A DNA stretch of 64,000 nt from Lutjanus erythropterus (taxonomy: Eukaryota; Chordata; Actinopteri; Lutjaniformes; Lutjanidae). Below the pieces are notes generated by a model that was not told where the DNA came from, made no database searches, and was given only the letters and a program-made list of their open reading frames with translations. Shown here one piece after another: positions 17,269 to 62,453 of the stretch (position 1 is its first letter; every line of letters begins with the position of its first letter). The position numbers and the translations under genes are program-made. The stretch is taken from positions 15,278,483 to 15,342,482 of the forward strand of contig CM034598.1 in assembly GCA_020091685.1 (NCBI GenBank), given 5' to 3'.

Positions 17269-20200
17269 CTGAAAAAAAAAAGTAAAAATGTGCTTCAGTA
17301 TAATTTCTTTGTAATGGAGCCGATTAAACTTTTAAAGCTACAGTTAGTGCACAAAATATCAAGGCATATTGACTTTGTGACTCTTGCTAAAGGCCATGAT
17401 TTACATTGATATTACCTGTGAAATATTTTGTATGCTGGAAAGAAGATGCAGATCAAAGTATGGCCGATAGGCTTTTGAAACTAATAAACTTGTACTGTGC
17501 AAAATGAGATGATACAGAATGTTGAATTGCCTCTAATGCAGTGGTTCTCAAACTTTTTCTGGCATGCGCCCCTTCAGAAGCCAAAAAAGGTTCATGCCTC
17601 CCACTGCACATTTTTATCAATCATTAACAGTGATGGGAGAAGAAATTAATAAAAAAAAAAGGATCCAATTTGAATTTTAGTGAAATAAAGGTCAGCGTGG
17701 AAGCATCAGCAAAATCATATTCAATCAACTTAGTTTAATTCCATATTATTCCCTCTGTCCTCCCTGCAGTGACTCGAGGCCCCACAGTTTGAGAAGCACT
17801 GCTCCAACGTGGTGCACTCTGTGGACGTTTCAGAAAATAGCAATTCGATTGTTTTCCACCACTGTAATGACAGAAATGTGCTTGCAATTATCCTGGAATT
17901 TACAAAGAGAAAGAACAAAACAACCAGACTGCACTTGGAACATGTCCAATTTCAAGTGTACTCTTGATTCTGCAAAAAAATATCTCTAGGCTTTGAAATC
18001 AAGTCTGTCTCTGTCACATAAATAGTTTTGGAAGAAAATAACTGGCATAAATGACAGAAATACTAAATATACACATACAAATCTGAAAAAAGGGTTGAAA
18101 TGCAAACTCTTGACAGAAGTTATAAGTGATCTCTTTACCAGATTAAGGCATTAATGTCACAGAGAAATAAACAAAACAATTCAATATTCATCACGCTGGA
18201 AATAAGTGTGATGTCAAAAATGTACAAGGTATATTTCGAATATATCTTAAAGGTCCGGTGTGTAATATGAAGGGGCATTTATTGGCAGATTATGGCAGAA
18301 ATGTAAAAGAATATTCGCATGTATGTTTTCATCTGCGTGTGATCACCTTAAAATAAGAATCATTGTGTTTTCGTTACCTTAGAATCTTATTGTACAGAGA
18401 TACAGAGGGTGCAGGTCCTCTTTCATGGAGGCTGCCATGTTGTACTCTCATGTTCCTACAGTGGCCAGAATGGACAAACCAAACACTGGCTCTAGACACA
18501 GTCTTCGGCATTTTTTGCAAGTTTCGCAGCACCTGTAGGTTCTCCTACATGCTTTGGAAGAGGAGAATGAGGCAAGGTGTTTCAAAGCGGAAAAATCACC
18601 GCCAGATGCCACTACATCCTACACATGGGATATTTAAAATAATGTTTCATAGATCAATTTGTTAGTGTTTTCAAATAAAATGTGATTATCAATTTAAAAG
18701 GTAGAATTGTGCATTAAGATATTGAATGATTGTATCATATGGTTTCACTGAAATATGAGAAAAAAGGATTCATTGCAAACCTTCTACAGAGGTGACTAAG
18801 TGATATGACAATAGTGATAGACACACTGTAATAGCTGAGTTTCTCTAATCTAACATTATAATATTTAATTACTGTAATATTATCGCAATACCATTATATC
18901 TGAGTGAACCTTTATTGGTTCTCTTTTCTGTGCAGTTACAGATAACTAGGAAAAATCCTGGAGGCACCAAATAATTGATTTTCAGTGGAGAAGGGAACTA
19001 AAAAAGCCACTAAAGGACACAAGTCAATGCTTTCATCCCGGTGGCGAAGTACTGAATTAATATTGAGCTAATATTGTTGTTGTGTGCAAACAATCCATGT
19101 CCTACCAACAGAATGGGATCCATATTAAAAGACATTACTTGTCGGTTGTCTCCTTGGTGAACAGTGCAGCGGTCAGACACCCCGTTTGCCACGAGGTTTT
19201 TCCGTAAAGCCTCAACAGCATCGAGGTTCCATTCACAGGCGTGAACATGACTGGCCCCCGCATGTACCAGGTATGGGAGAGTGAAGTATCCAATACCTGA
19301 AGCAAGATACAGTTTTTATAATTACACATAAACAAACCTGTCATGATTGAAACTATGTTTGATTACTACTGAAGAGTACATGGGTTAGACACAATAACAA
19401 TACATGACAATTATATGATATGGGACATTTGTTTTATTGTTTATTCTTTGATAATGTTTAAATAAAAAATAATTATATACCATATCTTTAGCAATGTAAA
19501 AAAATCTGTCACACATTGTCACAGCTATCTTACCTGCATACAAATCCACCACAGTCTCCCCCCTGCAGTCAAATTCGGCCACCCGGAGCTTCTCTGTTAT
19601 GTTGCCAGCTGAGAACATGCATTTGGTGACATCAAACTCATAACTGAAACAACAAGTGAAGACATGTTTCAGTCATACTCCAATGTAATCCTTCACAGGT
19701 CAAAGACATCTTCAGTAGGGCTGCAACTAATGATTATTTTCATTCAGTCATGTTTTCATTATTGATTAATGTTTCTACTATTTTCTTGATTAACAGATTG
19801 TTTGGTCCATAAACTGTCAGAAAATATTGAACACTGATTCCCAAAGCCCAATGTAACATCTTCAAATGTCCTGTTTTGTCCAAAATCCACAGATATTCTG
19901 TTAACTGTCATAGAGGAGTAAAGGAAATATTCACATTTCAGAAGCTAAAATCAGATAATTTGAACTTTATTTTTTTAATTTTATTAAAAAAAAGACTAAA
20001 TAAAATGATTAATTGAATATCAACATACAAATATTTAAGAAATATGAAGTATATTCTACTTCAAACTTATCAACTTGACTTTTCTTTGGCATCTGATAGT
20101 ATAATAGGTATTTTTCACTGCTTTTGATTATCAAGATAGCTGGAAATGAATTTAATAGCTGATGACTAATAGATCAATCTACAAATAATTGCAGCTCTAC

Positions 20201-21203
20201 TATTCAGTGAGCAAATCATCTGCAAATAAATGACTCTGAGTGATGAGGGCTGTAACTTACCTTATCTTATTGTCCACATGTTTGACCCAGCTGTGCTCTC
20301 CTAACAGCATTGTCACCACAGGTGACCTAAATCCATCCCTGGATATTCGACTCATCTTTGCCAGGCGCTTTGCCCCCAGTCCTTTGGCTACTGCACTCCA
20401 TAGCTGTTGAACTGAAAATGTAAAAAGCAATAAACAAATTAATTCATTAATTATTTTGTACACTTTGTACTAAAGGTGGGGTTGAGTTCAAGAGCAGTAC
20501 CCATTTTCTTCCATACTGGCGAGGAGAAACAACTGTCTGGCAACAGGACAAGGTCTTCATGTCTCTGGAAACTGCGAGGGAGGTCCCCTCTCAGCTCCTC
20601 TGCCCATCTTTCACCATGAGATTGCAACAGCTCCTGGAGAATTTTCTCTAGTTTGTTACCACGTGTCTGTCCTCTCCCTTTCTTTAACTGCAGAGGAGAC
20701 TGTGGTGAAAACAGGACAGACAACACTTTGAATCTGCAGTACAGTACTATATTTTAATAGTATTTGTGATGAAACTCAGCTTTAATTACCTGACTCCAGA
20801 CTATTTCACAGGCACTGTCTGAGGCCACCATGGTTCTGAGAGACAGCAAATCAAGTTGCGACAGACAGGATGGTAAAATGGGTAGGAGGACCGTCTCATC
20901 TGTGTCTTTCAGTAAACACAAACTCGGGTCCAGTGCTCCTTGCGAATGTAGATATTTCCTGCAAGATAACACATTTAAAAAACGATATAACAATAGTACA
21001 GACAGACACGGTAAACATAACTAGCCTAACCTGTTAATCAAAGAATCTTTCTATGTTCAATGCTTAGTTCTTGCCAGAGTCTAAGAACTTAAGGTTCCCA
21101 TGCTAACTGCTAGCTTAGCTTATATATTCACTCACTTAATGACTGATTACCTGAACTTCTGTGCCTGACACTGCGACACACGAAGGCAAGGCACTCCGTC
21201 CAT
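16891..21203 (-). CDS. trmt12: tRNA wybutosine-synthesizing protein 2 (acp transferase)
   Basis: Transfers the 3-amino-3-carboxypropyl group of S-adenosylmethionine to the tricyclic base at position 37 of tRNA-Phe, converting yW-86 to yW-72 in wybutosine synthesis; expected cytosolic. Seven exons: 21203-21151, 20958-20790, 20687-20501, 20411-20261, 19643-19534, 19296-19139, 17268-16891. They sum to 1206 nt (401 aa plus TGA) with every phase matched. The SAM-binding motif is VVDLYAGIGYFTLP (about 218-231), with acidic-loop ACEWN (243-247). Class-specific NLGLIPSSE starts near 287, GGILHIHQN follows, and the C-terminus has SYAPHVHHIVLDLEC. An in-frame TAA directly precedes the ATG, so the start is fixed. 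The protein is shorter than human TRMT12 (about 448 aa), mainly in a loop after HIHQN. trmt12 lies tandem to sytl4 and divergent from zdhhc9. Confidence 0.95.
17539..17801. mobile_element. hAT-like MITE with near-perfect 8-bp target duplication
   Basis: The ends CAGTGGTTCTCAAAC and GTTTGAGAAGCACTG are inverted. The flanks are CTCTAATG (17531-17538) and CTCCAACG (17802-17809), agreeing at 6 of 8 bases, the size of a hAT duplication. The element is 263 bp and cannot code for a transposase. Confidence 0.75.
18251..18632 (-). mobile_element. Family A MITE (TTAA-flanked), reverse copy
   Basis: It lies between TTAA at 18247-18250 and TTAA at 18633-18636. Internal words GGACAAACCAAACACTGG, AGGCTGCCATGTTG and CCAGATGCCACTACATCC recur in the other copies. 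It lies in trmt12 intron 6, in the gene's sense direction. Confidence 0.75.
19139..19296 (-). CDS. trmt12: trmt12 exon 6
   Basis: A 158-nt exon encoding GIGYFTLPYLVHAGASHVHA then CEWNLDAVEALRKNL and CTVHQGDNRQ. It holds the second half of the glycine-rich SAM loop and the acidic residue (CEWN) expected to bind the ribose. Confidence 0.95.
19534..19643 (-). CDS. trmt12: trmt12 exon 5
   Basis: A 110-nt exon encoding YEFDVTKCMFSAGNITEK then LRVAEFDCRGETVVDLYA. It carries the FDVTxCMFSxGNITEK signature of the Trm5/TYW2 family and the first half of the SAM motif, which is split by the following intron. Confidence 0.95.
19644..20260. other. trmt12 intron 4, mostly a common fish repeat
   Basis: From 19717 to 20202 it is a copy of a very common teleost repeat, starting AGGGCTGCAACTAATGATTA and ending AATTGCAGCTCTA in inverted form. 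The internal words TTTGGTCCATAAACTGTCAG and GTCATAGAGGAGTAAAG are typical. Nothing else was seen. Confidence 0.7.
20261..20411 (-). CDS. trmt12: trmt12 exon 4
   Basis: A 151-nt exon encoding LWSAVAKGLGAKRLAKMS then RISRDGFRSPVVTMLLGEH and WVKHVDNKI. LGAxRLAK and the HVDNxI motif lead into the methyltransferase-like fold. Ser, rather than the usual Arg, precedes the next Tyr at the junction. Confidence 0.93.
20501..20687 (-). CDS. trmt12: trmt12 exon 3
   Basis: A 187-nt exon (acceptor CTCTGCAG, donor GTACTG) encoding LKKGRGQTRGNKLEK, then RWAEELRGDLPRSFQRHEDL, then SPVWKKM. The DLPRSxQRHxxLxLL pattern is characteristic of TYW2. Confidence 0.92.
20790..20958 (-). CDS. trmt12: trmt12 exon 2
   Basis: A 169-nt exon (acceptor ATCTTGCAG, donor GTAATT). 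It encodes KYLHSQGALDPSLCLLKD, then a Leu-rich stretch ending ACEIVWSQ. It resembles the N-terminal REYLxxQxLFD region of human TRMT12. Confidence 0.9.
21151..21203 (-). CDS. trmt12: trmt12 exon 1
   Basis: A 53-nt coding exon encoding MDGVPCLRVSQCQAQKF and ending AG before GTAATC; the next exon adds G to make Arg, giving FRKYL. TAA lies in frame immediately before the ATG. Confidence 0.88.
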
Positions 21204-25916: not shown

Positions 25917-26080
25917 ATGTCGGCCGTGATGATAACACGAAAGGTGCGAAAATGGGAGAAGCTCCCGGGTAAAAACACTTTCTGCTGCGACGGTCGGGTG
26001 ATGATGGCCCGACAGAAAGGAGTCTTCTACCTGACCCTGTTCCTCATCGTCGGGACCTGCGCCCTCTTCTTCGCTTTCGA
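25917..26080 (+). CDS. zdhhc9: zdhhc9 exon 1
   Basis: A 164-nt coding part encoding [20 protein letters not shown] then [19 protein letters not shown] and TM1. The donor is GTAAGT. It is followed by a 17.8-kb first intron. Confidence 0.95.
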
Positions 26081-29000
26081 GTAAGTCTTTTCCATTTCCT
26101 CCGTCTGGATCATCATGAACCACGATGATCTGCTCCAGACAGGGTTCAGAAGTCAGTGGTCCGGCTCCCAGAATCCCTATTAGTGGTGTAAGAAAGTATC
26201 GATACACTTGAACATCACGATATCAAGTTTGGTTTTTATGATATGAAGTCTCAGAAACACTGTATCGTGATAAATGTTTTTATGGCAGTGGTTCATTTTG
26301 TGTTGTTTTTAATCTGATGCCTAGGTTGCAGTGTTTTTTGTCTATTTTTCACTGTTCTGATTCCATGCAAAAGTAAACTTTATAAACTCAGATTTAGGGC
26401 TGTGCAATACGTTTTAAAAAAGTAGTTTTGATTCTTTTGACTGAAACTGCGACATGAAAGGTGATGAAAGGGAATGATCATCTTCATCTCTGATCATTTT
26501 GACTGATTTTTTTTTTTCTTTCATCCAGAGAACAAGATCAGCCCTAGTCTGATTTGATGCATATGTGGTGTCGTGTTCTTAATACTGTGACAGTTTTCCT
26601 GAAATTAGATTTAAAAGCAATAGATCATGCTACTTACAATATCACAATATATCGCAATATACTAAATCCTAACCCTATAGGGCTGGGTGTCAGTACTAGA
26701 TAGTTTGAGTGTCGCGATATTCAAAATCTACGTTTTGATTTGACAATTGATTTTACATTCACGATTCAAATTTATTTTTTTTCCAACCTTTTTTAAAATT
26801 AAAGATGACCATGCCATTGTAAGACTATCCTGTCTTGATCTGTGAATATCAACAGATTATTGGTTTTATGCCCTGACAACTGTTGAACATTTACAGTTAC
26901 GGTACAGTACATCATTTTCTTTACAAAGATCATCTATACAGTAGAGCTGGGCCGATGGCTGACAGTCATCAACCACTGAGTCCTCTACCATCATAACACT
27001 GTGAATTAAAAGTCCTCTGTGTTTGAGATAGTGTGTCCCCTCAGAGTTGTTGCCTAAGTTCAGTTTTTGTCAAGTGGGAGAGAAAACCAGAAAAGCTGTT
27101 GCTGGTTTTCATTACACTTTGTCTCAATCTTCTGTTTATTATTTTCTTTTTAAACACAACTAAGTTACGGACATGCGGTGCTGAGATAAAGACCCTTGTA
27201 GACCCAGCAATGATATCCTTGTCCATTGTGATGTTTCAGTGTGGACATTGTTTTAATCCAATTTGGTAGCCATCACCCAGCCCTACTATCATGTGTGATA
27301 TAATGGTTCGTAAGGTACACTGTGTTGTCTTTCAAGAGTTGTTTTTTTTCTTTGGACGTGCGTCAGAATTCGCAAGTAGGCGGAGGTGGAGAGGAAAAAC
27401 AAATACTAGGAGGGTTGTTGATTCTGCCTTTGATTTCGATTACTGAAATTGAAAGTTAATTTTGATTGATTTTTGAGTCAGTATTGGATTTTAACACTCT
27501 TTGTATCAGATCCTTTGAAGTCATTGACCATTGACTTTGTCAGTCAAGCAATACCTGCATTTGATCCTTTTTATACCCAGATCTAGAGAAAAATTACTAT
27601 TTTTATGGTTTTGCTCATAGCCAATCATCACAAGCTGTCATTTTTTAATGCCATGTGTGACAGGCCCACTACCACCCTGTACACCAATACAGTATATAGT
27701 GATGCATTGAAATTGCTTGTTTTGTCCAAATACTATCCACAACCTAAAAATATTCATGTTCCTACCTACCTATATGACAAAAAATGGTAAAAGCCTCACA
27801 TGTAACAAGCTTGAACCAGCAAATATTTGGTATTTTGCGCAAAAAAATCCCTGGAAGTAGTAATCATTTACCAAAATAGTTGGTTTTAGTTGCTTCTAGT
27901 TGTTCCAACTCCAAGTTTTAGTCTCATCTCAACCATTTCTGTCGTATGTATGATCTACCTGATGTGTGCAGAATATTATCAATCAGTGTCTGATGTTTGA
28001 AAGCTTTTAATTTGTACTTAAACATCATGTGACTCTTTGGATTAGTGTTTTCTTGTGTATATTTGTTTTGATAATCTCTAAGACATGTGGTGGATCCATG
28101 TCTTGTTGCTCAAAATTCGGTCCTCATCAGAGGAATGGTTGATGATTGACCACATACTGGGATGTTAAATATTTCATAACCCTCACTGTCCAGCTTCTCC
28201 TCTGCTTTAAGAAAGGAAAGCTGCCTGTTTCTGTTGTCTCAGCAGTTCTGTCTCAACCCACTACTCGCACAACCCGATGGACTCATTAGAACTGCAAACG
28301 CTGGCGGTCGGCACGGCTGCAGCATGTGAACCCAGATCCTGTCAGAGGAGGCTGCAGCGAGGATTGTTTTTAAAATGAAGAACATGAGTCAAAATGATAG
28401 TCATGAAGCGGTGCTGCTTCTCATTTAGACTGCGCTCATTTTCTGTTGTTGTCCCACATGTCTCCTCTTCCTTCTGTCTTCTCTTGCCTGAAAAATCAGG
28501 CACAATGATTTAGCAGAAAATGCTGCTCTGTAACACAGTAACCCCTCTTGACTGTGGGCGTGTATGCAGCAGCAGCTACCAGGCCAAATGGATTTGGAGC
28601 ATAGCAGAGAAGAGAAGTAGCTGCCCTTGCATAGTGCCAGGCCCTTCCCATCTCTAGTCTGCTGTGCACTTTAATGGCCTCCAGCTTTCCTCGGAGCCCG
28701 GACAGAAAGAGCTGTTGTCCAGCTCGGAGCAGAGAGGGAGAGATGATACTGCTCACACTGAGCATCCACAGCCCAGAGGAGGCATTGCGGTGACTAATGG
28801 CTGGAGGGTTGTTAGCGTACTATGTTCATATTACAGTGGAACATAATTATCTCTCGTGGGGGGGTGGATATTAACGTGGAGATTGGACCAAGACAACATG
28901 GGGGTAATTTTCCAAACTTGCCATTACACGGCATGCTGATATATATCTGATTTAAACCTCTGACAGAGTAATTGACTTCTGCACAAAAAGGTTTAATGCG

Positions 29001-41800: not shown

Positions 41801-44800
41801 TCATGTTTTCTTGATTCTTTTGACATTAAATCTAGGGCTGCACCTAATAATTTGTTAAAAAATTTGAGTACTCGCCATCACATTTGCCCAGTTTGGGTTA
41901 TTTAATATGGGGTTGTATGAGGTGCATACCGATAGTCAGTGTATTAGCTGCTTACAGAAGATGGTGACACTCCCAGTTTGGAGAAACCGGGAGGAGTTCT
42001 AACATGAAAGCTAAGAAATGAACTCCTGTGGACAGCATCGGCAACAAAATGTTTTTTATGCACTTAAAAAAGGACCACCTAAAATAATCTATATGCTGTA
42101 TTTACAGTATTTTCACTGCGTTACCTTGACATCAGACAGCCTTTTCTGATGGAAAACTGTTATATAAGCCAAATATTGCTCTCTCCATGCCAACCAAATT
42201 CCATAGGCAAACTTGATAATTTTACCTCACAGAACACTGTAGCTTGTAGTTCAGATTTCCAGAAGTCACACAATATCACAAACAAACTGATTGAGGCAGC
42301 GGTGGACTCGCATCTCCTGTGTTCTGCAAAGTAAAATGACTGATTTTGCCGATGGAGTTTGGTTGGTTTGGACAGAGCAATATTTGGCCCGTATAAAGGC
42401 GGTTTCCTGTCAGAAAGGGCTGTCAGCTGATGGCAAAGTAAAGTGGAAATATCCAAAAAAAAAACAGGTTTTGTTGCTGACTCTGTCCGCAGCAGTACAT
42501 TGCTGAGCTTCCATGCTGGTTCCCCTCTCTGCTTCTCTTAACTGGGGATGTGCTGACAGCCATCTACTGTATGTAATACACTGACTATGGATAAGTACTT
42601 CATACAACCGCACTTCAATTAATCTTAAAAAAAAAAGAAAAAACTTAATTACATTGATTATGAAAAGCAAATTGAGGCAACAAACATGCTGGTGGCATGT
42701 GGCCATACAGATGCCTGTCATGAACATACTGTATTTTCTGGAGTTGTCCAAAAATAGAGTCATTTTGAGACAGAGTGAATCCAGTATTGAATGAGCTATT
42801 AGGATATATAATTGCCAAGAAGTGTCTCATTTAATTCCTGGGAAATATAACTGAAGTGATGCAGAAGAATGATAATCACTCCATCAAAATGCCGCTCACT
42901 GCTGGCAATGGGTGGCAGGGATGGGATTGATACAATTTTACTGATACCAGTGCCATCATGGATCCAATTTTTTATCGATTCCTTTATTGATTCCTGATCA
43001 ATTATGTGAAAACAATCTAGACCTACACAGGTGTTCAGTGCCAATGCAACCGTTTTATTATCTCTGAGTCTGAATGTTGTTGTTGCAAGTTTCCAGCAGC
43101 GTAAACATGAGTTTGATGTCATTGTTTGGAGGTATGTGGTTCAGATGGATCGAACAGTTTGGTTCTCATCTGGAACCGGTTCTTGATTTCCATCCCTAGA
43201 TAGTGGGAAGGCCATTACAGGAAACTGGCTAGAAATGGACCCACCCAGACATAGACAGCAGTTAGATATAATAAAGAAAATATGTTTGATGGTAAAGATG
43301 ACTCTTTCTCTAAGAAATGAGAGTTTAACAAAAAATGTGGACATGTTTACAAATAAAGACACTGACATGGTATAATTTTATTGACAATAATGTGAATTAT
43401 TGACAAAAAGTACCAAGCAAGTAAACCAAATAAATAGTTGTAAACTGTGCAGCTGTATGTTTTGATGTTATGTTTTTGTTTTACTTGTAAAGGCAATCAA
43501 ATGATGCAAAAATCAAAGAAAAGCAGCAAATTCTCACACTGGAGAATCTGGGACCAGAAAACGTTTTAAAAATTAATTTTATTATGTTGTAAAAACAAGT
43601 CCTGATTAATTTTCTTAGTCTAATGGAACAATCAATTAATTGATTAACCACGGGAACTGTGTTAAAATCATGACAAAGCAAGACACAAAAATGTTTCATT
43701 TGTAGTTCTATTACATCCTATGTAAAATAAGGCCAAACAGAATAACAAAAAAAAACAAAACTGTGGTTTGACAGCTCTCATTCAATGGAAAAAAAAAAGG
43801 TTTTCCCTCTTTACCTTCTTTTGGACTGAATCTTTTTTTTTTTTTTTTTTACAGATGTCCATACCTGGCTGTCCATCTGTCTCCTGCCATCCCAGTTTTC
43901 GCTGTCCTCCTCTTCCTCTTCGTCATGGCCATGTTACTGAGGACCAGCTTCAGTGACCCCGGGGTGCTGCCGCGGGCCCTTCCAGAGGAGGCCACGTTCA
44001 TCGAGATGGAAATCGGTGAGTCACAGTAATTTGTTTACAGGCAGTTTTAGAAATATTTGTCTTTAGTTTCAGTGTACTCATCTTCTGATCCACCTCTGCT
44101 CTGGTCTCTTCAATATTTCCCTTAAAACCTGGCTTCAGATCTTTCTCTTTTTTCAGACCAGTGTAAAGACAAACTGCTCTTGGCTTTATGGATCTTTACA
44201 GTGAGCTTCAGCTCATTGTTTAGCTGTGTTGCCTGCAACTTAACTGTTTTGATTCACTTTCATCACTCGCACATAAACTGTGTTTACATGGACCCTGATA
44301 TTCCACTAGTAATAATCATAATAATAATAGAAGAAGGAAGGAATGTTCAGTTGGGTTGAGAGGGTTGGTGTAATCCAGTAATCTATTCAACAGGAAAATA
44401 ATAACCATGTAAACAGTTAATCTGATTGTCTGTCCCTGGCTGGAGTAAATATATTCTTTCAATGCTTTATGTATAACAAACAAGTTTCCAGGAGGGACAG
44501 AAACAAAACAGAACTGGTCAGCAGTGGGTACAACTTTTCTGTTAGAAACCTTTAAAGATTTAAAGATGCTAATGAAATAAAGTGATCCAATAAAATGTGT
44601 TTTATTTACAAAAGTAGAGCTCTCCAAATGAATGAAAATCTTTCTCCGTGACCGCTGGATGTATAAATAAGCAACTAGTTCACCATATCAGCATAAGAGG
44701 TGTTAATGTCCATGTTGTGTTCACAACTTATTTTCGTTGCCCTCAAGTGCCCAAAAAAATCAGTTGAAATGTTCAAATCCATGATGACATTCCTTATGTC

Positions 44801-49400: not shown

Positions 49401-51399
49401 TGGGCTGTCCCAGAGAAAAGATGATCAGTGTGAAAGAAACATGGTGAAATCTTTGTTACAAACCCGGGGTCCTATGTCGCACTGTGAGAGCGGGTCAAAG
49501 ATGAGCCTGGGACAAAAGTACTTGATTGATTTATACTGTTACTACCAGAACAAATCTGAAATTTGTATCATAGCAGCTCTGTTTTCAAGAAACAAAATAC
49601 ATACATTTAATATGACATTAAGTCACAAAAATTAAGCTGAGATAAACAATATAATACATTTATCAATATAAACACAGAAGATGACATCCATGACCCTTTA
49701 AGATTTGATCTGGAATTGAGTTCCATATTTAATTTTAAGATTGACTGATGCACAAAAGGATTTTTCAGTCTAACCTCCAGTTCGATGGTAACAATCTGTA
49801 TTCACTGTTCAGGACATGGCTGGGATAATTACATGTCAAAAAAGAAAAACTAGAGTTTGCACACTGGCATTTGGGCAAAATGTCACATAGTGCTACATGG
49901 GAGAAATTTAGGATAACCATCTCACAATGTGACTGCTGTTATGACCTGCGTCTACCAACCAACCAACCAACAGGCATGCATGAACGTTTGTTTATGTAAG
50001 TCATTTTAGCATACTTAGCATACTACAGATGCTTAACATTACCTCAAGCTCTCTTTGCAAAATTGGCATCCCAAGTTGGCCTCTTTTCTCTCGCCATAAC
50101 CGGGTCCACATTCTCCTCCTCCTCGTCATCTTTTCTTTTGGATTATTTTTCCTTACACATAAATATCACTTTTGCAAACACTCTTGCTTAGCTATATTAT
50201 TTACCACTATAGCGGCACAGATGACTCTCATTGATGATGTTTTCAAAGTTTCAAAGGTATAAGTATATAAGGTAAGGTATAAGGTATATTCAAAGTCATC
50301 AGTGCAATAAAACTCTTAAGTCATGTCTTTCTACCTGGAGCCATTAATCATTCTATTTACAAATATAAAAATCTACAAGAAATGTAAGTTTAATAAAAAA
50401 TAGCGAAAGAAAGACAGACGAGATGACAGAGGACGACAAGGTGATAAACAATGTAAAAAGCTATATGTGCGGTAAAACCAGAATAAAAATAGTACAAAAG
50501 TCTGTACAAAAGGTGACTGAGGTAGACAAAGTGATAAACAGTTATGCTGAAGTTCACACACAACAGTGTATGCTGTATAAAAACATTATAGAACAGTATA
50601 AGCAAAAAAAAGACAAGTTGTGTATATTGTTCTATACTGACTTGTGATTCACTCCGTGTTATCGTTGCACATCGTTGTCTATTCATCAAACATGATGTTG
50701 TACCCAAGTTTATTAGATGTGTGTCCCAGCATGGCTGCAATAAACATATAAGAATGCTGAAATCTTACAGTCAGTAGGCATCATCAGGATAATTTCTTGT
50801 GTGACCACGATTACCAGCACCTACTAAAGAATTTCATGTTGTTTCTCTCTACAGAGGCCGCCAATGGGAACGTCCCTGCAGGGCAGCGACCTCCACCTCG
50901 GATCCGCAACGTTCAGATCAACAACCAGATCGTCAAACTCAAGTACTGTTACACCTGCAAGATCTTCCGACCACCTCGAGCTTCTCACTGCAGCATCTGT
51001 GACAACTGCGTCGGTGAGAAACCTGTTCTGCTGCGATCCGTCAGTTCTTACGATGCTCAAAACAAAAGGCTTCACAAAGTGAGAAGACGACAGCTCACTG
51101 AAGTCGGTTTATTTCAGTTTTTCAGAAATAGAAAGGTGAACAGTGGTCTATGGGGAAAAATAGCCTGCTGACGTGATGATTATTCCTGTAGCCTCGATTT
51201 TAATTACCTCTGCATTCTTTTGTCACAATGATTAAATAATATAAAAGTCAGAGCTTTATAAATAAATGCTGGACTGAGAAGACAAGGTGCAAAAAAGTTT
51301 TAGAAAACTGAAACAAATGGGACAAAAACTTAACAGGGTGTGATTTTCTTTTTCTTTTTTTTTTTAATGGAATGTGCTTTGAATTTTGAAGGCGGTTTG

Positions 51400-51452
<53 letters not shown>

Positions 51453-54400
51453 GTAGTGTGTGTGTGTGTGTGTAGCTGTGTCGTCTCTCAGCCCTGCTGA
51501 ATAACAGTGATTTGGCTTCTGATGATTGAGGAATGCGTCTGAGGGGAGCGTAGACTCACGGGCGATATGAGAGGAGACAGTGGAGGCTCAGTGAGGGAAT
51601 AAGCGCTCAGTCATTGTGAACACTGGTTCATCTGTGTCCACCTGCTGTACAAACACACACACACACACACACACAGTCCAGGCATGACACAGCAGCACGC
51701 CTCAGTCCCTCTTTTACTGCAGTCATATCTTTTCCTCCTCCACTGGATGTTGTTTATGGCGGTTAAAGTCTGTCACTGAATTTGCAGCAATAAAATAACA
51801 GCCAAACCATTTCACAAATTACATTCGTTTATACCTGGCGCCTTGTCTGTTTAATATATTATAAGACGTCTGATGCACACTATAGCCTGTGAGTATTTGG
51901 ATGGTAGTTTTAGCTCCATATGTAGCACATAGGAGTTGAAATAAAACAATAAGTACTGGGCTAAAGTGCTAGTCTGGTTCCAGGCTTCTGAATTACTCAT
52001 GTCTTTTTTCAGTGATTCAAAATGACCAAAAAGGCAATTTAGTTTGATTATGAAGCTTGCAAAGTGCTTTCAGCTGTAATTTGAGGGTTTTTACATCCAT
52101 ATTGAGTGAACTAGGTAGAGGATTACTGTCCTGTTGTACTCCGTATGAAATCTAAAAATAGGTGGAGGGACTGTGTAACAAGACAAAGAGTGTACAGCTG
52201 TAGCAGCTCTGTGAGGTTGTACTTTGTGGTGCTTTGAGCTAAATGCAAACGTCGGCATGACAACATGCTCACAGTGACAGTGCTAATGTTTAGCAGGTAT
52301 AATGTTTAGTCTAATCACCATCTTAGTTTAGCTTGTTAACATTTTCCAGGTATCCAGGGGTGAAAGTAGACTGAAGTTCATGCCAGTTCTACAACTCCAG
52401 TCTTTCTCGCTTCATATTAGTCTCCTACTGCTCACAGCGTCATGCATCCCTGAACACACACATTCATTTTTTTTTTAACGCCTGTATGGTGTAGAGAAAG
52501 CAGATCATGTGTAGTGAATGATTTATTTACATCGTGCCACACGATAATTTGTGAATGTTGACAAAACTTTCAAAATCATAACAGTTTGTTGTGTTTAAAT
52601 TAGAAGAGAATTACAACTAAATTATTATTGCTTACATAAATGAAAGAAGAGACGATGATAATAAAATGTCTCAAAATGTCCTTTACAACATATGGATTAA
52701 AATGAAAGATGACCTTTTTAGCATTTTTTTTAAACAAATCAAAACACTTTGGTGTTGGTTTGGTCTTAATGGTCTTAAAAAAATAGAAAGTGTAGGAACA
52801 ATAAATTAAACTCAATCTTCCAGGCTCTGTGTGTTTCAGAAATAAAGATGGACACCCATACTGTTATTATACTGGAGGTACAGAACGACCCATGGAAGAT
52901 ACATATTTGACCTGCTGTCCATGTTGTTGGAATAAAACCGAACATCATGAAACACGACTGCTTGCCAAAATCCCACAGCACTCGATATCAAACCATCAAC
53001 CTGCAACTGAAGCTGGTGTTAGTCAGCAGTAACTGATCAGTTGTGGAAAAGGAGCAGGGTTTCCTCCAGCATGGATTAAAAACCCGTAGGTCTATACAGG
53101 GCACAAACACACTGGAAAATTTATGATAAAACTAACTGTTGTTGTCTTTTTGGAAAGGTGATCATGGCAGGTCGTTGTGCTGGACCGTACCATCGTACTT
53201 TCACCCCGTAGGTTGGTCATTAGTTTCTCAGGTGTACACAGTGAAATTTTGATTCAGTTGTGCACTAGATGAAAGTCCAGAGTAATCCATCCAATTCATT
53301 GGAATGATGAATCGTTTGTGGACCCACCAGCCAACCGACAGACAGACACTGACATTCCTGGAGCGATGTTGCTAGCATGGCTTAGAAAATATTGTGAAAA
53401 CTATATTCTATAAAAAGGCTCCTTCTCAACTCCACTGTGAATATTAAAGTGACCCGTTTATTTTGACCTTAAATCTACAAGCCACTTCACATCTTGCGTT
53501 TCTGCATCAGTGTTTACTGTGTATTGTTGTGAAACTCCATCCAGGGAGAGCGGCGTTGTGTCTGCTGTACGGAAAAGTGCAAAGCTAGATGTTTACCTAG
53601 ATGTTGTTGTCCGTTTGACACTACCCTGTTTTCATCTGGCTCTTCAAATTATAGAAGAGGAAGTGATCACTATATTTAGACTGCAGGTTTACAGAAGTTG
53701 ATGCACAAAGCTGTCTTTGACTGAAACGCTGCAGCTGATACTGGTGTATTTTTAAAACTTGCTTGATTTTCAAAAGTGTCTGTTTCAGTCGCTGGTTCAA
53801 TTTACATATTTATACGGCGACCTTTTTTCTCTTTCGCAGACCGTTTTGATCACCACTGTCCATGGGTAGGCAACTGTGTGGGCAAGAGGAACTACCGCTA
53901 CTTCTACCTGTTCACCATGTCCCTCTCCCTCCTCACCATTTACATCTTCACCTTCGACATCGTCCACGTGGTCATGCGTGAGTATTCTGTCAGTCATTCA
54001 ACCAATTAGAAGGAACAGACAGGATGGATGATTTAAAAGAATCTGGCAAAACAGGAAGAACAACCGGTTATACAACCTCACTAGCATCGTCTAGTGTGGC
54101 TTCACATGTGCCGACACTATGACCTAATTCAGACCAGACTTTTCCTGGAGTGTGACATGACGCGCTACATCTACTGACAGCTTGACATGAGTCCTCTTTC
54201 ATCCTCACCCTCCTGCCTCCTAGTTCAGGCCAACGCAGACAGTGAGAAGACAGAGACGAGGAAACTGGAGTGTTTCTAGGCAGGATAATTAGCTCAGGGC
54301 TTGTTATCTTAATACTGTGATAATGTGCAAGAATAATGCCTTTTCAGCAGAGAAAAATATGAATAACTTAACTTCTTTCTGTCTTCACAGGTTCAGTGGA

Positions 54401-57400
54401 TAATGGTTTCTTGAATGCATTGAAGGAAACACCTGGGACATATCCTTTTAAGCTCTGACCACAGAATATACCACAAAAACAGCAGCTGTGTGAGTGCTCT
54501 GTTTGCCAGATTTCCGAGAATAGAAAATGAAAATCATCAGGATACTCTTCAAGTACGATACCCCAACAATGACCAAAACCTCTCCTTGAACAGTGACTTT
54601 CTAATAATAGCTTAGCATCCGTAACCAGGCGCGGTGGGGCTGTCAAGTTTTTCTCAGCATGATGAAGTGGAGTCCTTGCTTAGCCTTTCTAAAACCAAAA
54701 ACACAAGCGCAAAAGTGTGAGGAATGGATTAAACATTATGCTCATCTACAGTCTAAGATGCAGTCATTTGCATGTACAGCTAATTAGTACACAGTCCAAG
54801 GAGCACAGCTAACTACATTAATTTTAGGGGTTGTAGGCTGTTATGTTACAAGCTCAAACACTGTAGAATTTCACACTTTGTGGAAGGCGGTCCTGACTGC
54901 TGTTGGAGCTTAACATTAGTGACTCTGATCTGCTCTTACTGGTTTGGGGGAAATACAGTAACCCCAGCCAACATTACCCGACATGGTGCCATGCTGTTGT
55001 TCTAATGGCCCATTATTCTCAAACCCCAGTAGTCCAGAAAATATATATTGGAATGAAAGTCCATTTGTCTGACAGCTCGCTATCTCAAAAACAAGCACCC
55101 ATTGCTCCAAAAAAAAAGAAAAGAAAAGAAAAGAAAAGCACACTTCTGCCACTAGTTGTTAGTTCAATGACTGTCAGTTTTTTCCCTTATAACATCGAAA
55201 GAGAAAACATATTGTTTGAAAATGCAGTTACATAAACTATGCAGCCAGGCATAGTCCCATCTTAAAAATGTTCTTCGTCATATTGCATAATACTGGAGCA
55301 AACTGGCTCCGCACTGCAATGAAAGGACAAGCCTGTTTCTTTAGTGCCTAGATTCTCAAACTGTGGTTCCTGTCCCACTGGTTGTAAAAAAGCTCCCTCT
55401 AGTGGTACATGGAGGAATGTCAGGAGTATTTTTCAAAATGAAATAAATTAATTTAAAAACATAATGCTGTCAAAATACTAGAAGAGTCCCAATGAAGCTA
55501 CACACAATATAAATAATTTTAAAATAAGTTTTGTCTTTCCGCTATGTCAGCCTGCTACGTAATCACAGTCGCAGAGGCAGTGTGCATATAAGCCATCCAT
55601 GATTACCAGACGTTATGAGCTAAACTGTGATGGCAAGATAGTAAGTGGAGGTAAAATGTAAGGACTGGAGGTTAATGGTTCAAGAACACTGCAATCATGG
55701 CACCAAAGGAGCAGTAAGGAGGTACTGAGTTGCCTCAAGTTTGGATTCTGTTCGAGCAAGATCTGCAGATGAATACTTTAGGCCAGTGATAATGGTGGTA
55801 CTTAGAGAGCTCAGCATTTTCTGAGGTGGTACACAGTGTCAAAAGTTTGAGAAACACTGCTTTATTGTCTTCCTTAATAGCTGGTGATGATACTGACTTT
55901 TTGCGTGGTACATGTAGCTTTAGCATCAGTTGTTTAGCATGATAGCACATATATATAACCATCAGGTGTGTTATTTTAACAAATCAGCTGGACACATTAA
56001 AAAGTCAACTGGACAGTGTTGTCAACCAACTCATGGAGCTATTGTTAGCTTAATTAGCTGGCTAGCTAGATAAAATATGCTAGAGGCTAAATCAACAGCT
56101 AGAACTAAGAAGCTGCTTTTGTCTAAGAATTTTTATGGTGAATCAGATAAGTTGTCCTTTCACCAAGCAAAATCAAAAACTACAAAAAACGCATAGCAAC
56201 AGGAACTTAATGAATGAACTAAATTGTTTCATTTCTGCACAGTAAAAAAGGTAAAAACCTCCTGCCTTTGGATCTTACACCTTTTTTTAGACTTCATTAC
56301 CTTCTGCTGACGCTCACTTGCTGTAATCATGTTACACAATTGTCATTGTGCCATTTTGTCATCGCCTGCTGTCCACTGTTTAATCAGTGACCATGTGTCA
56401 GGCAGAAAACATCTGTTGCTGTTTTCTTAACTGGACTTCACTGTGCTGGAGGTGTTGGTGTGTTTCTTCACCCTGTGGTCAGTGGTGGGACTGACCGGCT
56501 TCCACACCTACCTGATCTCTCTCAACCAGACCACCAACGAGGACGTGAGTGCTTCTTTTTGCATGTTCAGTTAAATGTGTTCTATTTAAAGCCACTGAAG
56601 CTTTTTGTCCTTGAATCCATTCAAACTGCAGACAAATGCTGTTGTCATTTCTACGGTTTGATGTCTGAATCATGCTGTGAGGCTCTGCGCTGTACTTTGC
56701 ATCTAGTTTGTGTAGAGTTCACACTGTTTTCATGCAAATGATCCATGACATATGAACACACAGGCTAACAAGATTAACTCTTTCTTTGGTGGTTTTCTGT
56801 GACATTATTACCATCAAAGATCTTTGTTCCAGTGGCTGAAATTCTAAAAATGTTCTGTTGAACTGTATTCATATAGGCTATATTTGTCTTGGTGGTTCTG
56901 ATAGGTGTAGTAGTAATCCTGGAGAAAGATAGTTGATTTTTGAACTTCATTCTCAGGTTATCAAATTTACTGACTCTTTGGATTGTTGGCTTGAAGGTTG
57001 ATTGTTGAGTCCCATTCTCTGTTCAAGAAATGGTGACATTTTGGGAATGAGACTCAACAATCAAGTATTTTACCGACCTGTAAGCCGCCATATTCTCCTG
57101 TCACAAGGTCGATTATTCTAAAGCCTGAAAACGGAGCCGAAAGTAGGAGGAGATGTCTAGTTTTCTCTCAAGCCACTTGAATTTCATTATATTTAAAGGT
57201 TATTTTGAAACTTTTGCCCAATGACACCAAAAGCAAATAGTCTACCCCAGTTTTAAGACTTCAAGTTGGACTTTACATGCTGAGCTTTTCCAGTGTAAAC
57301 TAAAGCTCAGAGGGTGATGATAATGTACTATGATGCTGTTTGGGAACTGCCAAAAACACCAGAACAGCTCTGTAGTTTATAAATATTAATATATAGAGAA

Positions 57401-60400: not shown

Positions 60401-62453
60401 CACGTAAAAAAATATGATTAAATAATTAGGTCTTGCATTTTCCATATTAATGGTACAATCTCTTTAGACAGATATCTGTAGATGAATGCAGTATCTGGTT
60501 TCGGACGAGTTCTGGTTTCTGTTTGTAGTCCAAAACGTATTGAGTGATGACCTTTGAGCGCGCTTTGGTTGCATCTGGGTAAACTGTCAGCGTGGAGGTT
60601 GAACACATTGGCTGAAATGCAAGCTAAGAATCCATCAGCCATCATTTGATGAGAATTAAGCTTTTATAAAATGTATCTGTCTTCATAGATAGATAATCCT
60701 TGGCATACTCTATAATATTAGATAAATAAATATCTGACATGACAGAAAATAAATACAAGAACAAACTATACTAAAATAAAAAGCAAGAATAATATACAAG
60801 GACACACTATACCAAATATAGAAATACAGATAGTATACAAACACTATACAAAAAAATATGAAAAATGTAAACATAATGTATATGTGTAAGTAAATGTATA
60901 TGCAGATATCTGTTGAGAGAGACTGGCCAAAATGTGGTCAGTCATCCATTAAAACCTCTCAAGTTACTGATCAGACGGTAAACAATGACTGAAGAGGAAG
61001 TCTTTGCACAAATATCCATTATTCTGATATAAATATTGAACTATATATATATTGAACTTTGGTTATGTTTAGGCACCAAAACTACTTAGATAAGGTTTAG
61101 GAAAAGATCATGGTGTAATAATGATAATAATCTTTATTTATAGAGCACTTTTCTAAATCCCCGTTACAAAGTGCTTTGCACAAGGCAGCAACTTCATAAC
61201 AAGCTGATCATAAAACAACTTTGTTAGAAGGGCTTTCTGGCATAAAGATTTCTGCCAGAAAGAGCCCTGTAGTTCAATGTCCTCCATGTGCAACAGGTAG
61301 TGTAACCTGTATGTAACCTGAGAGGTGAAGCCAGGGGCCAAACAAAAAAAATCTCTGAAAACTGCACTCAGTGCTGCTTCTTAAGCTCAATGATGAACAT
61401 CAGGGTTAAATGATAAAAAAAAAATGAGCAGGACAAAACACCGCTGGAGTGAAGATCTTAAAGTTTTAAAAGATACGAAATATGTCAGGCTGAAGTTTGT
61501 GGAACAAATGATGCACAAGACATTCAGAATATTCCCATCTGATGTAATTGTGCGACCATAAAAAGCAATGAATATTTCACTGACTGTAAACATCCTATGA
61601 ATATGAAACAAGCCAATACAGAATGTGAATATGGAAAACAAAATAGGAAAACCGGACTTTTAGGAGTTAAAATGTTCCTCTTGTTAGCTGCTAAATAATG
61701 CATACGACTGAGAGTTTATATACAGTACAGTGCAGTTTTTACTGCTGGGGAATCCTTTGTATGAATTCTCAGGTTTTTCAATGAATTATTAAAGTGGCTG
61801 TAATCTGTAGTTGCTGTGCTCGTTGGCGCCCGTTGGCACATAGAGTTCCCATTAAACCAGGAATCATTAAATCCCTGACAAGATCTTCTTTAGTAGGTCA
61901 AAGCCAAGCCTGTGGGAATAACATCTAAAAATGGAGCTCTGCTTTTGAATAAGGTATGAAGCAGAGGGAAAATCTTTGTGAAAAAGAGAACTAAGCGAGA
62001 TTGTAACCAAACCGGGGTGTGTTTGAGATGTTGGTTGAAGGTTTGTTGCTCCGGTGGTGAGTGTTGTGTCCGTTTTGTTTTGCTCAGATTAAAGGATCCT
62101 GGTCGGGAAAGAACAGAGTCCAGAACCCATACAGCCACAAGAACATCATCAAAAACTGCTGTGAGGTGCTCTGTGGGCCGACGTACCCGAGGTAAGCTCT
62201 CCCTACTGCTGTCAGCAAGTTCTGTATCGGTGCTTGTGATAAATGACACTTTTAGATCCCTCTCTTTCATGTTTGTTCGTTCTGGAGAGTAATGAGCAGG
62301 ATGCAGTTAGTGACTGATCGCCTTGTCTCGTCTTCCAGCGTCTTGGACAGACGAGGACTGATGCAGGACGATTTGTCTGTTCCCGCGATGCCTGCCACTG
62401 CACCTTCCTCCACCTCCTCCTCCAGCAGCAGCAACCCAGTGCCACAAACCACA
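25917..62453 (+). CDS. zdhhc9: Palmitoyltransferase ZDHHC9, 3' end beyond window
   Basis: Golgi/ER protein S-acyltransferase; the mammalian enzyme works with GOLGA7 to palmitoylate H-Ras and N-Ras. Eight exons read in phase: 25917-26080, 43855-44015, 50855-51013, 53840-53977, 54391-54439, 56442-56544, 62088-62191, 62339-62453 (993 nt, 331 codons). TM1 is about residues 36-54 and TM2 58-83. The cysteine-rich domain starts at [16 protein letters not shown] (139-154), with catalytic DHHC at 165-168 followed by [13 protein letters not shown]3 is about 182-207 and TM4 228-250; TTNE (254-257) follows TM4. The C-terminal NCCEVLCG cysteines and VLDRRG end the readable part. [20 protein letters not shown] at the N-terminus fits ZDHHC9 better than ZDHHC14 or ZDHHC18. 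Human ZDHHC9 has 364 aa, so roughly 30 residues should lie beyond 64000. Exons 5 and 6 are joined by an AT-AC intron. Confidence 0.95.
26681..27284. mobile_element. MITE with AGGGCTGGGTG inverted ends
   Basis: The left end AGGGCTGGGTGTC and the right end CATCACCCAGCCCT are inverted with 11 perfect bases. The interior includes a second partial repeat end (GAGCTGGGCCGATGG) near 26944. No clear target duplication was seen. Confidence 0.55.
29106..29340 (+). repeat. Copy of the AGGGCTGCAACTAA fish repeat
   Basis: It begins AGGGCTGCAATTAACAATTA and includes AAATGACAGAAAATAGTG and GCTTGTTTTGTC, as in the copy at 19717-20202. It is truncated on the right. Confidence 0.6.
29411..29771 (+). mobile_element. 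Family A MITE, forward copy
   Basis: AGGACCAGTGTTGAGGATT, GGCATCTAGTGGTGAGC, GGAGAACCTACGGTGACC and TCTGCCAATAAATCCC in order. It carries an AT-rich expansion (ATGTATGTATGAATG) before the right end. The TTAA flanks have decayed. Confidence 0.75.
29800..30760. repeat. GCTAAC-type fish repeat split by an insertion
   Basis: From 29800 to about 30075 and from 30640 to 30760 the sequence matches a common fish repeat (TTAGTGCTAATTAG, TTAGCATGCTAAC; then TAGCATGTTAGCATGC, TTAGCATTTAGCTCACAG). About 560 bp of unrelated DNA, including a (TG)n array, lies between. Related pieces occur at 52200-52330 and 53240-53390. Confidence 0.5.
30556..30590. repeat. (TG)n microsatellite
   Basis: An uninterrupted TG array of about 35 bp in zdhhc9 intron 1. 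Confidence 0.97.
31854..32170 (+). repeat. Degenerate minisatellite, unit about 31-50 bp
   Basis: About eight diverged copies of TATCAATGCTAAAAATGG followed by TTAAGAACCCA, with variable spacing. Copies begin near 31854, 31888, 31920, 31950, 31970, 32003, 32092 and 32140. The array is old, since units differ by point changes and indels. Confidence 0.8.
33372..33709 (-). mobile_element. Family A MITE, reverse copy (left arm of inverted pair)
   Basis: It is flanked by TTAA at 33368-33371 and 33710-33713. It includes GGAGGTCGCCATGTTGCA, GGACAAACCAAACACTGG and CCAGATGCCACTAAATCC. It faces the forward copy at 33757 across 39 bp. Confidence 0.8.
33757..34115 (+). mobile_element. Family A MITE, forward copy (right arm of inverted pair)
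   Basis: It is flanked by TTAA at 33753-33756 and 34116-34119. The ends AGGACCAGTGTGGAGGATGT and ATCTTACACACTGGGCCT form terminal inverted repeats. The internal order matches the other forward copies. Confidence 0.82.
34326..34638. mobile_element. hAT-like MITE, eroded
   Basis: The left end CAGTGGTTCACAGCC and right end GTTGGGACTCACTG follow the CAGTGGTTC...CACTG pattern of short hAT elements. The flanking octamers no longer match well. Confidence 0.5.
35679..35705. repeat. (AC)n microsatellite
   Basis: A short AC array of about 27 bp, followed by two copies of ATGCAAACACA. Confidence 0.95.
36029..36514. mobile_element. MITE with 13-bp perfect TIRs and TAA duplication
   Basis: The left end AGGCTCATTTATGCCTCC and right end CCAGACATAAATGAGCCT share a perfect 13-bp inverted repeat (AGGCTCATTTATG). 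TAA flanks both sides (36026-36028 and 36515-36517). A 3-bp TWA duplication is typical of PIF/Harbinger elements, so assignment to that group is inference. It is 486 bp with no transposase. Confidence 0.8.
38201..38217. repeat. (TG)n microsatellite, short
   Basis: A 17-bp TG run in zdhhc9 intron 1. Confidence 0.9.
38798..38844. repeat. (TG)n microsatellite with one interruption
   Basis: TG repeats with a single TA step near the start, about 47 bp long. Confidence 0.95.
39290..39660 (+). repeat. CAAGTCTCAAGTC-rich repeat
   Basis: Two clusters (39296-39370 and 39560-39660) of repeated CAAGTCTCAAGTC and AAGTCAAAGTCAAG motifs flank a less repetitive core with ATCTTATAAATCTTTATC. The arrangement resembles a dispersed fish repeat with internal short tandem motifs. 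Confidence 0.6.
39843..40160 (+). mobile_element. tRNA-derived SINE, nearly full length
   Basis: The head GGGGCAGTGGTGGCCTAAAG and GTTTAGAGAAGCGCGCTT resemble a tRNA-related promoter with A box-like bases; the B box is degraded. The body has CCCTTGAGCAAGGCC and GGCAGCTTCCACGTGTGA. The tail has AATAAATAAAGC then A13. A partial copy lies at 15541-15735. Confidence 0.7.
41890..42630. mobile_element. Family B MITE, second copy
   Basis: The left end AGTTTGGGTTATTTAATATG and GGGGTTGTATGAGGTGC mirror the right end TCATACAACCGCACTTCAAT. Internal words CACTTAAAAAAGG, TTTTCACTGCGTTACCTTG and TCCTGTGTTCTGCAAAG are shared with 15816-16838. Confidence 0.65.
42917..43197. mobile_element. MITE-like repeat with AGGGATGG ends
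   Basis: The left end AGGGATGGGATTGATAC and right end GAACCGGTTCTTGATTTCCATCCCT form imperfect inverted ends. The interior ATTTTTTATCGATTCC is typical of a widespread fish repeat. Confidence 0.55.
43855..44015 (+). CDS. zdhhc9: zdhhc9 exon 2
   Basis: A 161-nt exon preceded by an unusually long T tract and ACAG. It encodes [15 protein letters not shown] (TM2), then [20 protein letters not shown]. The DPG motif after TM2 is conserved in DHHC enzymes. The donor is GTGAGT. Confidence 0.96.
44279..44420. mobile_element. Short MITE with TGTTTACATG ends
   Basis: The left end TGTTTACATGGACC is inverted relative to the right end AACCATGTAAACAG. The 142-bp interior has an ATAATAATAG tract. No clear duplication was seen. 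Confidence 0.5.
46132..46335 (+). mobile_element. tRNA-derived SINE
   Basis: A head with TGGTGGCTCAGTTGTTGGAA is followed by GCCCCATGTGCTGGGGCTG, a B-box-like GGTTTGGTTCCAGCC, and the typical GCTGTGTGTCATCCTCCTGC then CTCTCTCTCCGTTTCCTG. It ends in AACAAAGGAAAAAGG. Confidence 0.75.
46412..46444. repeat. (TG)n microsatellite
   Basis: An uninterrupted TG array of about 33 bp in zdhhc9 intron 2. Confidence 0.97.
48966..49231. mobile_element. MITE with AGGGCTGCA inverted ends
   Basis: The left end AGGGCTGCATGATATGGG and right end TTCATTGTGCAGCCCT share nine inverted terminal bases. The interior ATATCGCGATTATTTTGAC and GGGCCAGGGCATCTCTG also appear inside the composite element near 16490. Confidence 0.6.
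50855..51013 (+). CDS. zdhhc9: zdhhc9 exon 3 (cysteine-rich domain)
   Basis: A 159-nt exon encoding [18 protein letters not shown], then [15 protein letters not shown] and [15 protein letters not shown]. Its Cys and His residues form the zinc-binding part of the DHHC-CRD. The acceptor is CTCTACAG and the donor GTGAGA. Confidence 0.96.
51403..51474. repeat. (TG)n microsatellite, interrupted
   Basis: About 49 bp of TG, then a TTGTAG interruption, then a further TG run. It is the longest dinucleotide array in the window. Confidence 0.97.
51653..51675. repeat. (AC)n microsatellite
   Basis: A 23-bp AC array about 180 bp downstream of the larger TG array. The two are of opposite sense and could pair in the transcript. 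Confidence 0.95.
53840..53977 (+). CDS. zdhhc9: zdhhc9 exon 4 (catalytic DHHC)
   Basis: A 138-nt exon encoding [20 protein letters not shown] then TM3. C168 is the predicted acyl-accepting nucleophile. The residue before RFDHHC is Asp, where human ZDHHC9 has Glu. The acceptor is TTTCGCAG and the donor GTGAGT. Confidence 0.97.
53978..54390 (+). other. zdhhc9 intron 4 (413 bp)
   Basis: A short GT-AG intron directly upstream of the 49-nt exon 5. No repeat or other feature was seen in it. Confidence 0.85.
54391..54439 (+). CDS. zdhhc9: zdhhc9 exon 5 (49 nt, ends at an AT-AC donor)
   Basis: A 49-nt exon after acceptor GTCTTCACAG, encoding [15 protein letters not shown]. It ends GGGAC directly before ATATCCTTTT. 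No GT follows before an in-frame TGA, so an ordinary GT donor cannot end this exon in frame. Splicing to exon 6 restores ETPGTVLEV as in human ZDHHC9. Confidence 0.92.
54440..56441 (+). other. zdhhc9: AT-AC (U12-type) intron of zdhhc9
   Basis: This 2002-bp, phase-2 intron begins ATATCCTTTT, the minor-spliceosome AT-AC 5' splice-site consensus. It ends TTTTCTTAACTGGACTTCAC: the branch-like TTCTTAAC lies about 11 nt before the terminal AC, and there is no AG or long pyrimidine tract at the boundary. Joining AC+T makes Thr and reproduces the conserved PGTVLEV. Inside are a hAT-like repeat (55348-55859) and an AAAAG run near 55117-55137. Confidence 0.9.
55348..55859. mobile_element. hAT-like repeat inside the AT-AC intron
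   Basis: The left end TAGATTCTCAAACTGTGG and right end AAAAGTTTGAGAAACACTG are inverted and fit the CAGTGTTTCTCAAAC pattern. The left terminus is eroded and no duplication was found. Confidence 0.5.
56442..56544 (+). CDS. zdhhc9: zdhhc9 exon 6 (TM4)
   Basis: A 103-nt exon that starts after GGACTTCAC, not after AG. It encodes [20 protein letters not shown] then [14 protein letters not shown], covering TM4 and the TTxE motif. The donor is GTGAGT. Confidence 0.94.
59472..59493. repeat. (AC)n microsatellite
   Basis: A 22-bp AC array in zdhhc9 intron 6. Confidence 0.95.
59632..59651. repeat. CAG trinucleotide run
   Basis: About seven consecutive CAG units in intron 6, followed by GGGATGG. Not coding in the zdhhc9 model. 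Confidence 0.9.
59941..60006 (+). repeat. Polypurine tract, G-rich
   Basis: About 65 bases nearly all purine, starting with nine or more G and continuing with GGAGG, GGGAG and GGGGG runs. It could adopt triplex or G-quadruplex structure. Confidence 0.8.
62088..62191 (+). CDS. zdhhc9: zdhhc9 exon 7
   Basis: A 104-nt exon (acceptor TTTTGCTCAG, donor GTAAGC) encoding [19 protein letters not shown] then [15 protein letters not shown]. The NCCEVLCG cysteines after TM4 are conserved in the ZDHHC9/14/18 group. Confidence 0.95.
62339..62453 (+). CDS. zdhhc9: zdhhc9 exon 8
   Basis: A 115-nt exon after a 147-bp intron (acceptor CGTCTTCCAG). It encodes [19 protein letters not shown] and a Thr/Ser-rich tail ending NPVPQTT. 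The donor GTGAGC runs straight into a (CA)n array. No later exon could be identified to 64000. Confidence 0.9.

Follow-up and report, generated by a model that had tools for sequence, protein, structure and literature searches.

How is a palmitoyltransferase gene spliced at a junction where one coding exon ends in GGGAC, no GT precedes the in-frame stop, and the next exon nonetheless continues the conserved protein, and does such a junction belong to a single gene or to a family? The question is raised by a 64-kb stretch of Lutjanus erythropterus DNA (hereafter the window, G000:C8:15278483-15342482), which we analysed together with the genome of 937.6 Mb and 444 contigs in which it lies. We conclude that positions 54440-56441 of the window almost certainly constitute a U12-type AT-AC intron of zdhhc9 that would descend from one U12 intron predating the split between the zdhhc5/8 and zdhhc9/14/18 groups.

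The + strand of the window carries a gene for a DHHC palmitoyltransferase (Pfam DHHC, 7e-39 on the joined protein), whose best match among PDB chains is human ZDHHC9 (8hf3_A) with 616.9 bits, followed at a distance by ZDHHC5 (190.6) and ERF2 (121.7) in a comparison that gave eight hits, with no ZDHHC14 or ZDHHC18 chain among them. Over 76 residues, the encoded protein is 86% identical to human ZDHHC9 and 62-78% identical to relatives found elsewhere in the genome (C14, C15, C5 and C17). Judging from these similarities, we identify the gene as zdhhc9, being nearest to ZDHHC9 among the palmitoyltransferases compared; the enzyme it specifies palmitoylates Ras.

Eight coding exons were placed, all on the + strand. 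Exon 1 (25917-26080), aligned to ZDHHC9, starts with an ATG at 25917 and is followed by GTAAGT, while exon 2 (43855-44015) is preceded by AG and followed by GTGAGT. The Cys-rich part of the DHHC domain lies in exon 3 (50855-51013; preceded by AG, followed by GTGAGA) and the DHHC active site with the RNYR motif in exon 4 (53840-53977; preceded by AG, followed by GTGAGT). Exon 5 (54391-54439) comprises 49 nt and ends on the AC of a split Thr codon, exon 6 (56442-56544) carries the last membrane span with the TTNE motif and is followed by GTGAGT, and exon 7 (62088-62191) begins with IKGSW. For exon 8 (62339-62453), the 3' end is tentative and was set by eye, with 62455 used in the junction analysis, and the gene probably runs on beyond the 3' edge of the window. 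Apart from the junction between exons 5 and 6, the other six of the seven junctions among these exons show GT...AG ends. Upstream of zdhhc9, a gene for a TYW2-like tRNA-modifying methyltransferase is represented by pieces on the - strand at 19010-19315 and 20451-20753 (Pfam TRM5-TYW2_MTfase, 2.7e-9; TYW2_N_2, 0.0011, which is below its cut-off). Rfam and tRNA scans of the 64-kb window gave no match, and no relative was found in the viral contigs searched.

At the exceptional junction, the 2002 nt from 54440 to 56441 on the + strand read ATATCCTTTT...TTTCTTAACTGGACTTCAC, with AT at 54440-54441 and AC at 56440-56441 as in the rare AT-AC subtype, and a base-level check agrees with these coordinates. 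Excision of this segment links the GGGAC at the 3' end of exon 5 to TGTGCTGG at the 5' end of exon 6, cuts a Thr codon after two bases (AC/T, phase 2) and gives back the PGTVLEV of human ZDHHC9, with the junction falling at PGT/VLEV. The joined protein aligns to human ZDHHC9 (8hf3_A) in phmmer with no gap at the junction. Reading through past exon 5 instead leads to an in-frame TGA at 54456 without passing a GT; the GTs within exon 5 are found at 54391, 54396 and 54406. The sequence and the reading frame of the junction are direct observations.

The putative 5' splice site ATATCCTTTT (54440-54449, + strand) fully matches the U12-type donor RTATCCTT. Branch sites of U12-type introns follow the consensus TTCCTTRAY or TTCCTTRAC at a distance of some 10-20 nt to the 3' splice site. 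A predicted branch site, TTTCTTAAC (56423-56431, + strand), matches TTCCTTRAY at eight of nine positions; its presumed branch A is 56430, which at 11 nt upstream of the 3' splice site falls within that range. The intron shares with U12-type AT-AC introns in general the consensus elements for which these are known. All of this bears out what a first-pass annotation of the same DNA had described, namely an exon 5 ending in GGGAC without a GT before the in-frame TGA, a branch-like site about 11 nt from the AC and a join that recreates the human PGTVLEV. AT-AC ends alone do not identify the spliceosome, and sodium channel genes contain U2-type AT-AC introns, which share their terminal dinucleotides with the zdhhc9 intron and are removed by the major spliceosome (PMC2831892, in the parts available to us). 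According to the same parts of that paper, however, such introns have G at +5, where the zdhhc9 intron has C, as do all nine related introns described below, and the full U12 octamer and the U12-like branch site 11 nt upstream of the intron end point the same way. We have rejected a U2-type AT-AC intron on these three features and regard removal by the major (U2) spliceosome as highly improbable.

The motifs alone do not carry this assignment. On the + strand of the window, the octamer ATATCCTT is found at 27213 and 54440, on the - strand nowhere. A scan for donor/branch/AC pairs gave four on the + strand, each with the donor at 54440, and not one on the - strand. Since about two (2.0) such pairs, along with 1.4 donors, are expected per 64-kb strand of random sequence (30 simulations of first-order random sequence with the same make-up), the motif pair by itself is not significant and lies within chance in 64 kb, and we have dropped motif rarity as evidence. 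The octamer at 27213, within intron 1 of zdhhc9, formed no donor/branch/AC pair in the scan and is taken as a chance occurrence, and of [AG]TATCCTT there are 12 further copies in the 287,320 sense bases searched. What is decisive is that the octamer stands exactly at an exon end and does so again in nine of nine related genes.

Given how often such pairs arise by chance, the AT-AC ends could in principle be coincidental, with the true junction being of the GT-AG type or with a short exon hidden inside 54440-56441. In-frame GT-AG pairs do exist, one of them formed by the donor at 54396 and an acceptor that lies 10 nt into exon 6. Such pairs were listed in all five 9/14/18-group genes, with donors taken as far as the first stop in frame and acceptors between 100 nt upstream and 60 nt downstream of the AC end, and the resulting proteins were compared over 45 residues. 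Every listed in-frame pair drops conserved residues or adds intron-derived ones in all five genes, and none restores the conserved join. A bridging exon is very unlikely as well, with no residue missing relative to human ZDHHC9 in the gap-free AT-AC join and with the homologous intron of the C17 relative measuring 106 nt. Both alternatives, which the first-pass annotation had itself singled out as competing with its reading, are rejected on these grounds, and we consider the chance that either is correct to be extremely small.

The U12-type reading of the zdhhc9 junction is strengthened by the relatives of this gene. A Pfam DHHC search of the genome gave 40 exon-level matches, among which 21 loci were read, six were second exons of genes already counted and 13 were further places outside the survey; zdhhc9 exons 6-7, used as query, picked out the closest relatives. 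The codon of interest was read in nine members of the branch and in four other DHHC genes, while in the remaining eight of the 21 loci, which contain scattered [AG]TATCCTT hits, the last-span exon was not located. A comparison with ZDHHC14 and ZDHHC18 had been proposed in the first-pass annotation, and when run on relatives within the same genome, it found AT-AC at the same junction. All five genes of the 9/14/18 group that were found (the window gene, C15, C14, C5 and C17) carry ATATCCTT...AC at the same codon and in the same phase, with CTTRA as branch motif at a distance of 11-15 nt to the intron end. This branch motif reads CTTGA ahead of the AC in C15 and C14, which we take to be zdhhc14-like, and in C5 and C17, which we take to be zdhhc18-like from their similarity; C14 and C15 are 97% identical to each other and C5 and C17 91%. 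In the four zdhhc5/8-like genes found (C3, C8, C18 and C9), the same codon is split in the same phase by an intron of the form GTATCCTT...AG, the AG ends having been picked as those that keep the frame and being preceded by CTTGAC or CTTAAC.

All nine introns are in phase 2 and split a codon located 16 residues before GLTG/GLSG, which is Thr in zdhhc9 and the zdhhc5/8-like genes and Ser in the zdhhc14- and zdhhc18-like ones. In an independent phmmer alignment, the Thr that is split in zdhhc9 falls opposite a Thr of human ZDHHC5, the one matching the 5/8-group splice site. Alignment column, phase and U12 type agree in nine of nine genes, and both the homologous position and its conservation are read directly from the genome. 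Because all nine related genes found have a U12-type intron at this one codon, we read the intron as old and inherited and not as a local oddity. The donor is 100% identical across the nine introns from +2 to +8, while positions +11 to +60 average 28%, which indicates that the donor has been kept by constraint and not by recent copying. Placement at the exon end and this conservation among paralogues make an AT-AC intron of U12 type, directly ahead of the last membrane span, by far the best reading of zdhhc9. That part of the first-pass annotation is supported; the annotation describes the intron in one gene, and in this genome it extends to the whole 5/8/9/14/18 branch as found.

The nine introns range from 106 to 2792 nt in length. 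The shortest, that of the zdhhc18-like gene on C17 (L014), differs strongly in size from the other four AT-AC copies, which measure 1411-2792 nt. Among the zdhhc5/8-like genes, the one on C9 (L045, G000:C9:32727500-32737400) has a U12 GT-AG intron of 161 nt with a perfect donor, and its best branch-like site, GAACTTGAC, agrees with only six of the nine consensus bases; this branch site is perhaps drifting.

Do the introns of the two groups go back to one ancestor, or were U12-type introns gained separately at the same codon by the 5/8 and 9/14/18 genes? Their termini differ by group (GT-AG versus AT-AC), and the groups are only 42-54% identical over the 76 residues of this region, an alignment on which the homology of the position rests. 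Against two gains stand the shared codon column, phase and type, and a donor whose first eight bases are the same apart from +1. In addition, the homologous codon lies 8-18 residues inside an exon in all four other DHHC genes with a located last-span exon (C9 at 12.09 Mb, C18 at 2.37 Mb, C20 at 10.70 Mb and C8 at 24.09 Mb), where the AG at the exon start was chosen by eye and the codon placed by ungapped counting. A change of subtype is moreover a documented event, with 36 intron clusters containing both U12 subtypes according to the parts of PMC2831892 at hand. Although possible, two gains at one codon make a less simple history than one origin, and we judge them unlikely. We infer instead that one U12 intron occupied this codon before zdhhc5/8 and zdhhc9/14/18 separated, and that a switch between AT-AC and GT-AG on one of the two stems would have left AT-AC in the five 9/14/18 genes and GT-AG in the four 5/8-like ones.

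The machinery for removing such introns is encoded in the same genome, where genes for U11, U12, U4atac and U6atac are directly observed. As only the best candidates were scored, the copy numbers are lower bounds: at least one gene each exceeds the Rfam cut-off for U12 (128.4 bits), U11 (119.9 bits) and U6atac (129.3 bits), and at least two do so for U4atac (96.6 and 94.3 bits). The two U4atac genes lie at G000:C24:1306002-1306131 on the + strand (L011) and G000:C6:11048457-11048583 on the - strand (L012). By eye, TCCTTT, which occupies +4 to +9 of the zdhhc9 donor, finds its full complement in the AAAGGA of U6atac, and U11 starts with AAAAAGGG, of which AAAAGG is complementary to CCTTTT at +5 to +10. 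The U12 segment GUAAGGAA pairs with TTTCTTAAC, also by eye, with one G-U pair and one bulged A. In minor splicing, the donor is recognised by U11 and U6atac and the branch site by U12. We infer from the sequence that splicing of zdhhc9 depends on this pathway, in which U11 and then U6atac would read the donor ATATCCTTTT, U12 would pair with TTTCTTAAC, and the minor spliceosome would join AC to T within the Thr codon of PGT/VLEV.

Parts of this picture have precedents. The ZDHHC8 gene, which belongs to the same branch of enzymes as zdhhc9, has a U12-type intron with GT-AG ends in both fly and human (PMC2831892, Table 2), identified by its intron number in the parts at hand, and Lin and colleagues report in the same paper that this intron has turned U2-type in D. 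ananassae and Anopheles. The fly orthologue of ZDHHC8 also appears as CG34449 in Table 1 of PMC2952598 and as CG32705 in Table 2 of PMC2831892, and the shared ZDHHC8 label suggests that these two are one gene. The zdhhc5/8-like genes of the present genome have their U12 GT-AG intron at the codon that matches the one split in zdhhc9, but the ZDHHC8 intron differs from that of zdhhc9 in its GT-AG ends, and the accessible parts of PMC2831892 and PMC2952598 contain neither ZDHHC9, ZDHHC14 or ZDHHC18 nor a comparison of positions across the groups. Subtype and termini are shared with the U12 AT-AC introns of PHB2, STX6 and KCMF1 (PMC2831892, Table 2, as far as available), which sit in other genes and show no difference in kind. 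As judged from the same source, the U12 introns of sodium and calcium channel genes are likewise old, spread by gene duplication and inherited by many paralogues; the paralogue groups of the zdhhc branch in this genome are split by subtype, with AT-AC in five genes and GT-AG in four.

Among the literature matches checked, and within the portions available, only the papers on fly and human ZDHHC8 tie a ZDHHC gene to a U12 intron, and the AT-AC intron of the 9/14/18 group is not named; supplements and U12 databases lay outside the scope of this search and may well list these introns. The retention of a ZDHHC8 intron reported in the part of PMC10705125 available to us concerns the final intron of that gene, a different one from the intron studied here. 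For the branch as such, a U12-type member in ZDHHC8 was already known (PMC2831892).

If the intron were retained, translation of zdhhc9 would end after PGT-YPFKL. The protein would then be missing what exons 6-8 encode, namely its last membrane span, TTNE motif and Cys-rich C-terminal segment, unless the mRNA were degraded instead. ZDHHC9 belongs to the X-linked genes behind intellectual disability. It is also listed among X-linked epilepsy genes (PMC13075117, in the part available to us). Regarding the branch as a whole, mouse Zdhhc5, 8, 9, 14, 18 and 19 fall on one branch, all of which except Zdhhc19 bind GOLGA7, and Zdhhc1, outside that branch, binds it too (PMC12528901, in the available portion). 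In the present genome, where zdhhc19 was not identified, the U12 intron would thus mark the GOLGA7-binding branch. Evidence on impaired minor splicing in fish comes from zebrafish zrsr2 mutants, which retain 218 of 662 U12 introns, for the most part shorter ones, longer introns being less often affected; palmitoylation is one of the processes in which the genes concerned take part, and the accessible text does not name these genes (PMC9501576).

The finding turns what looked like a curiosity of one gene into what may be a rule for a whole branch, in that the nine enzymes found appear, by their sequence, to rely on the minor spliceosome at one codon. Minor-spliceosome disease and protein palmitoylation are thereby joined by a link that can be tested directly. 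The genes also exemplify how the AT-AC and GT-AG subtypes can be divided between groups of paralogues. A single persisting U12 intron might even place the entire GOLGA7-binding branch under the minor spliceosome, such that lowered minor splicing would cut Ras and synaptic palmitoylation together, an extension that we put forward tentatively and with more doubt than conviction. If it is true, RNU4ATAC or RNPC3 disease and loss of ZRSR2 would lead to truncation of these enzymes before their last membrane span and to less palmitoylation.
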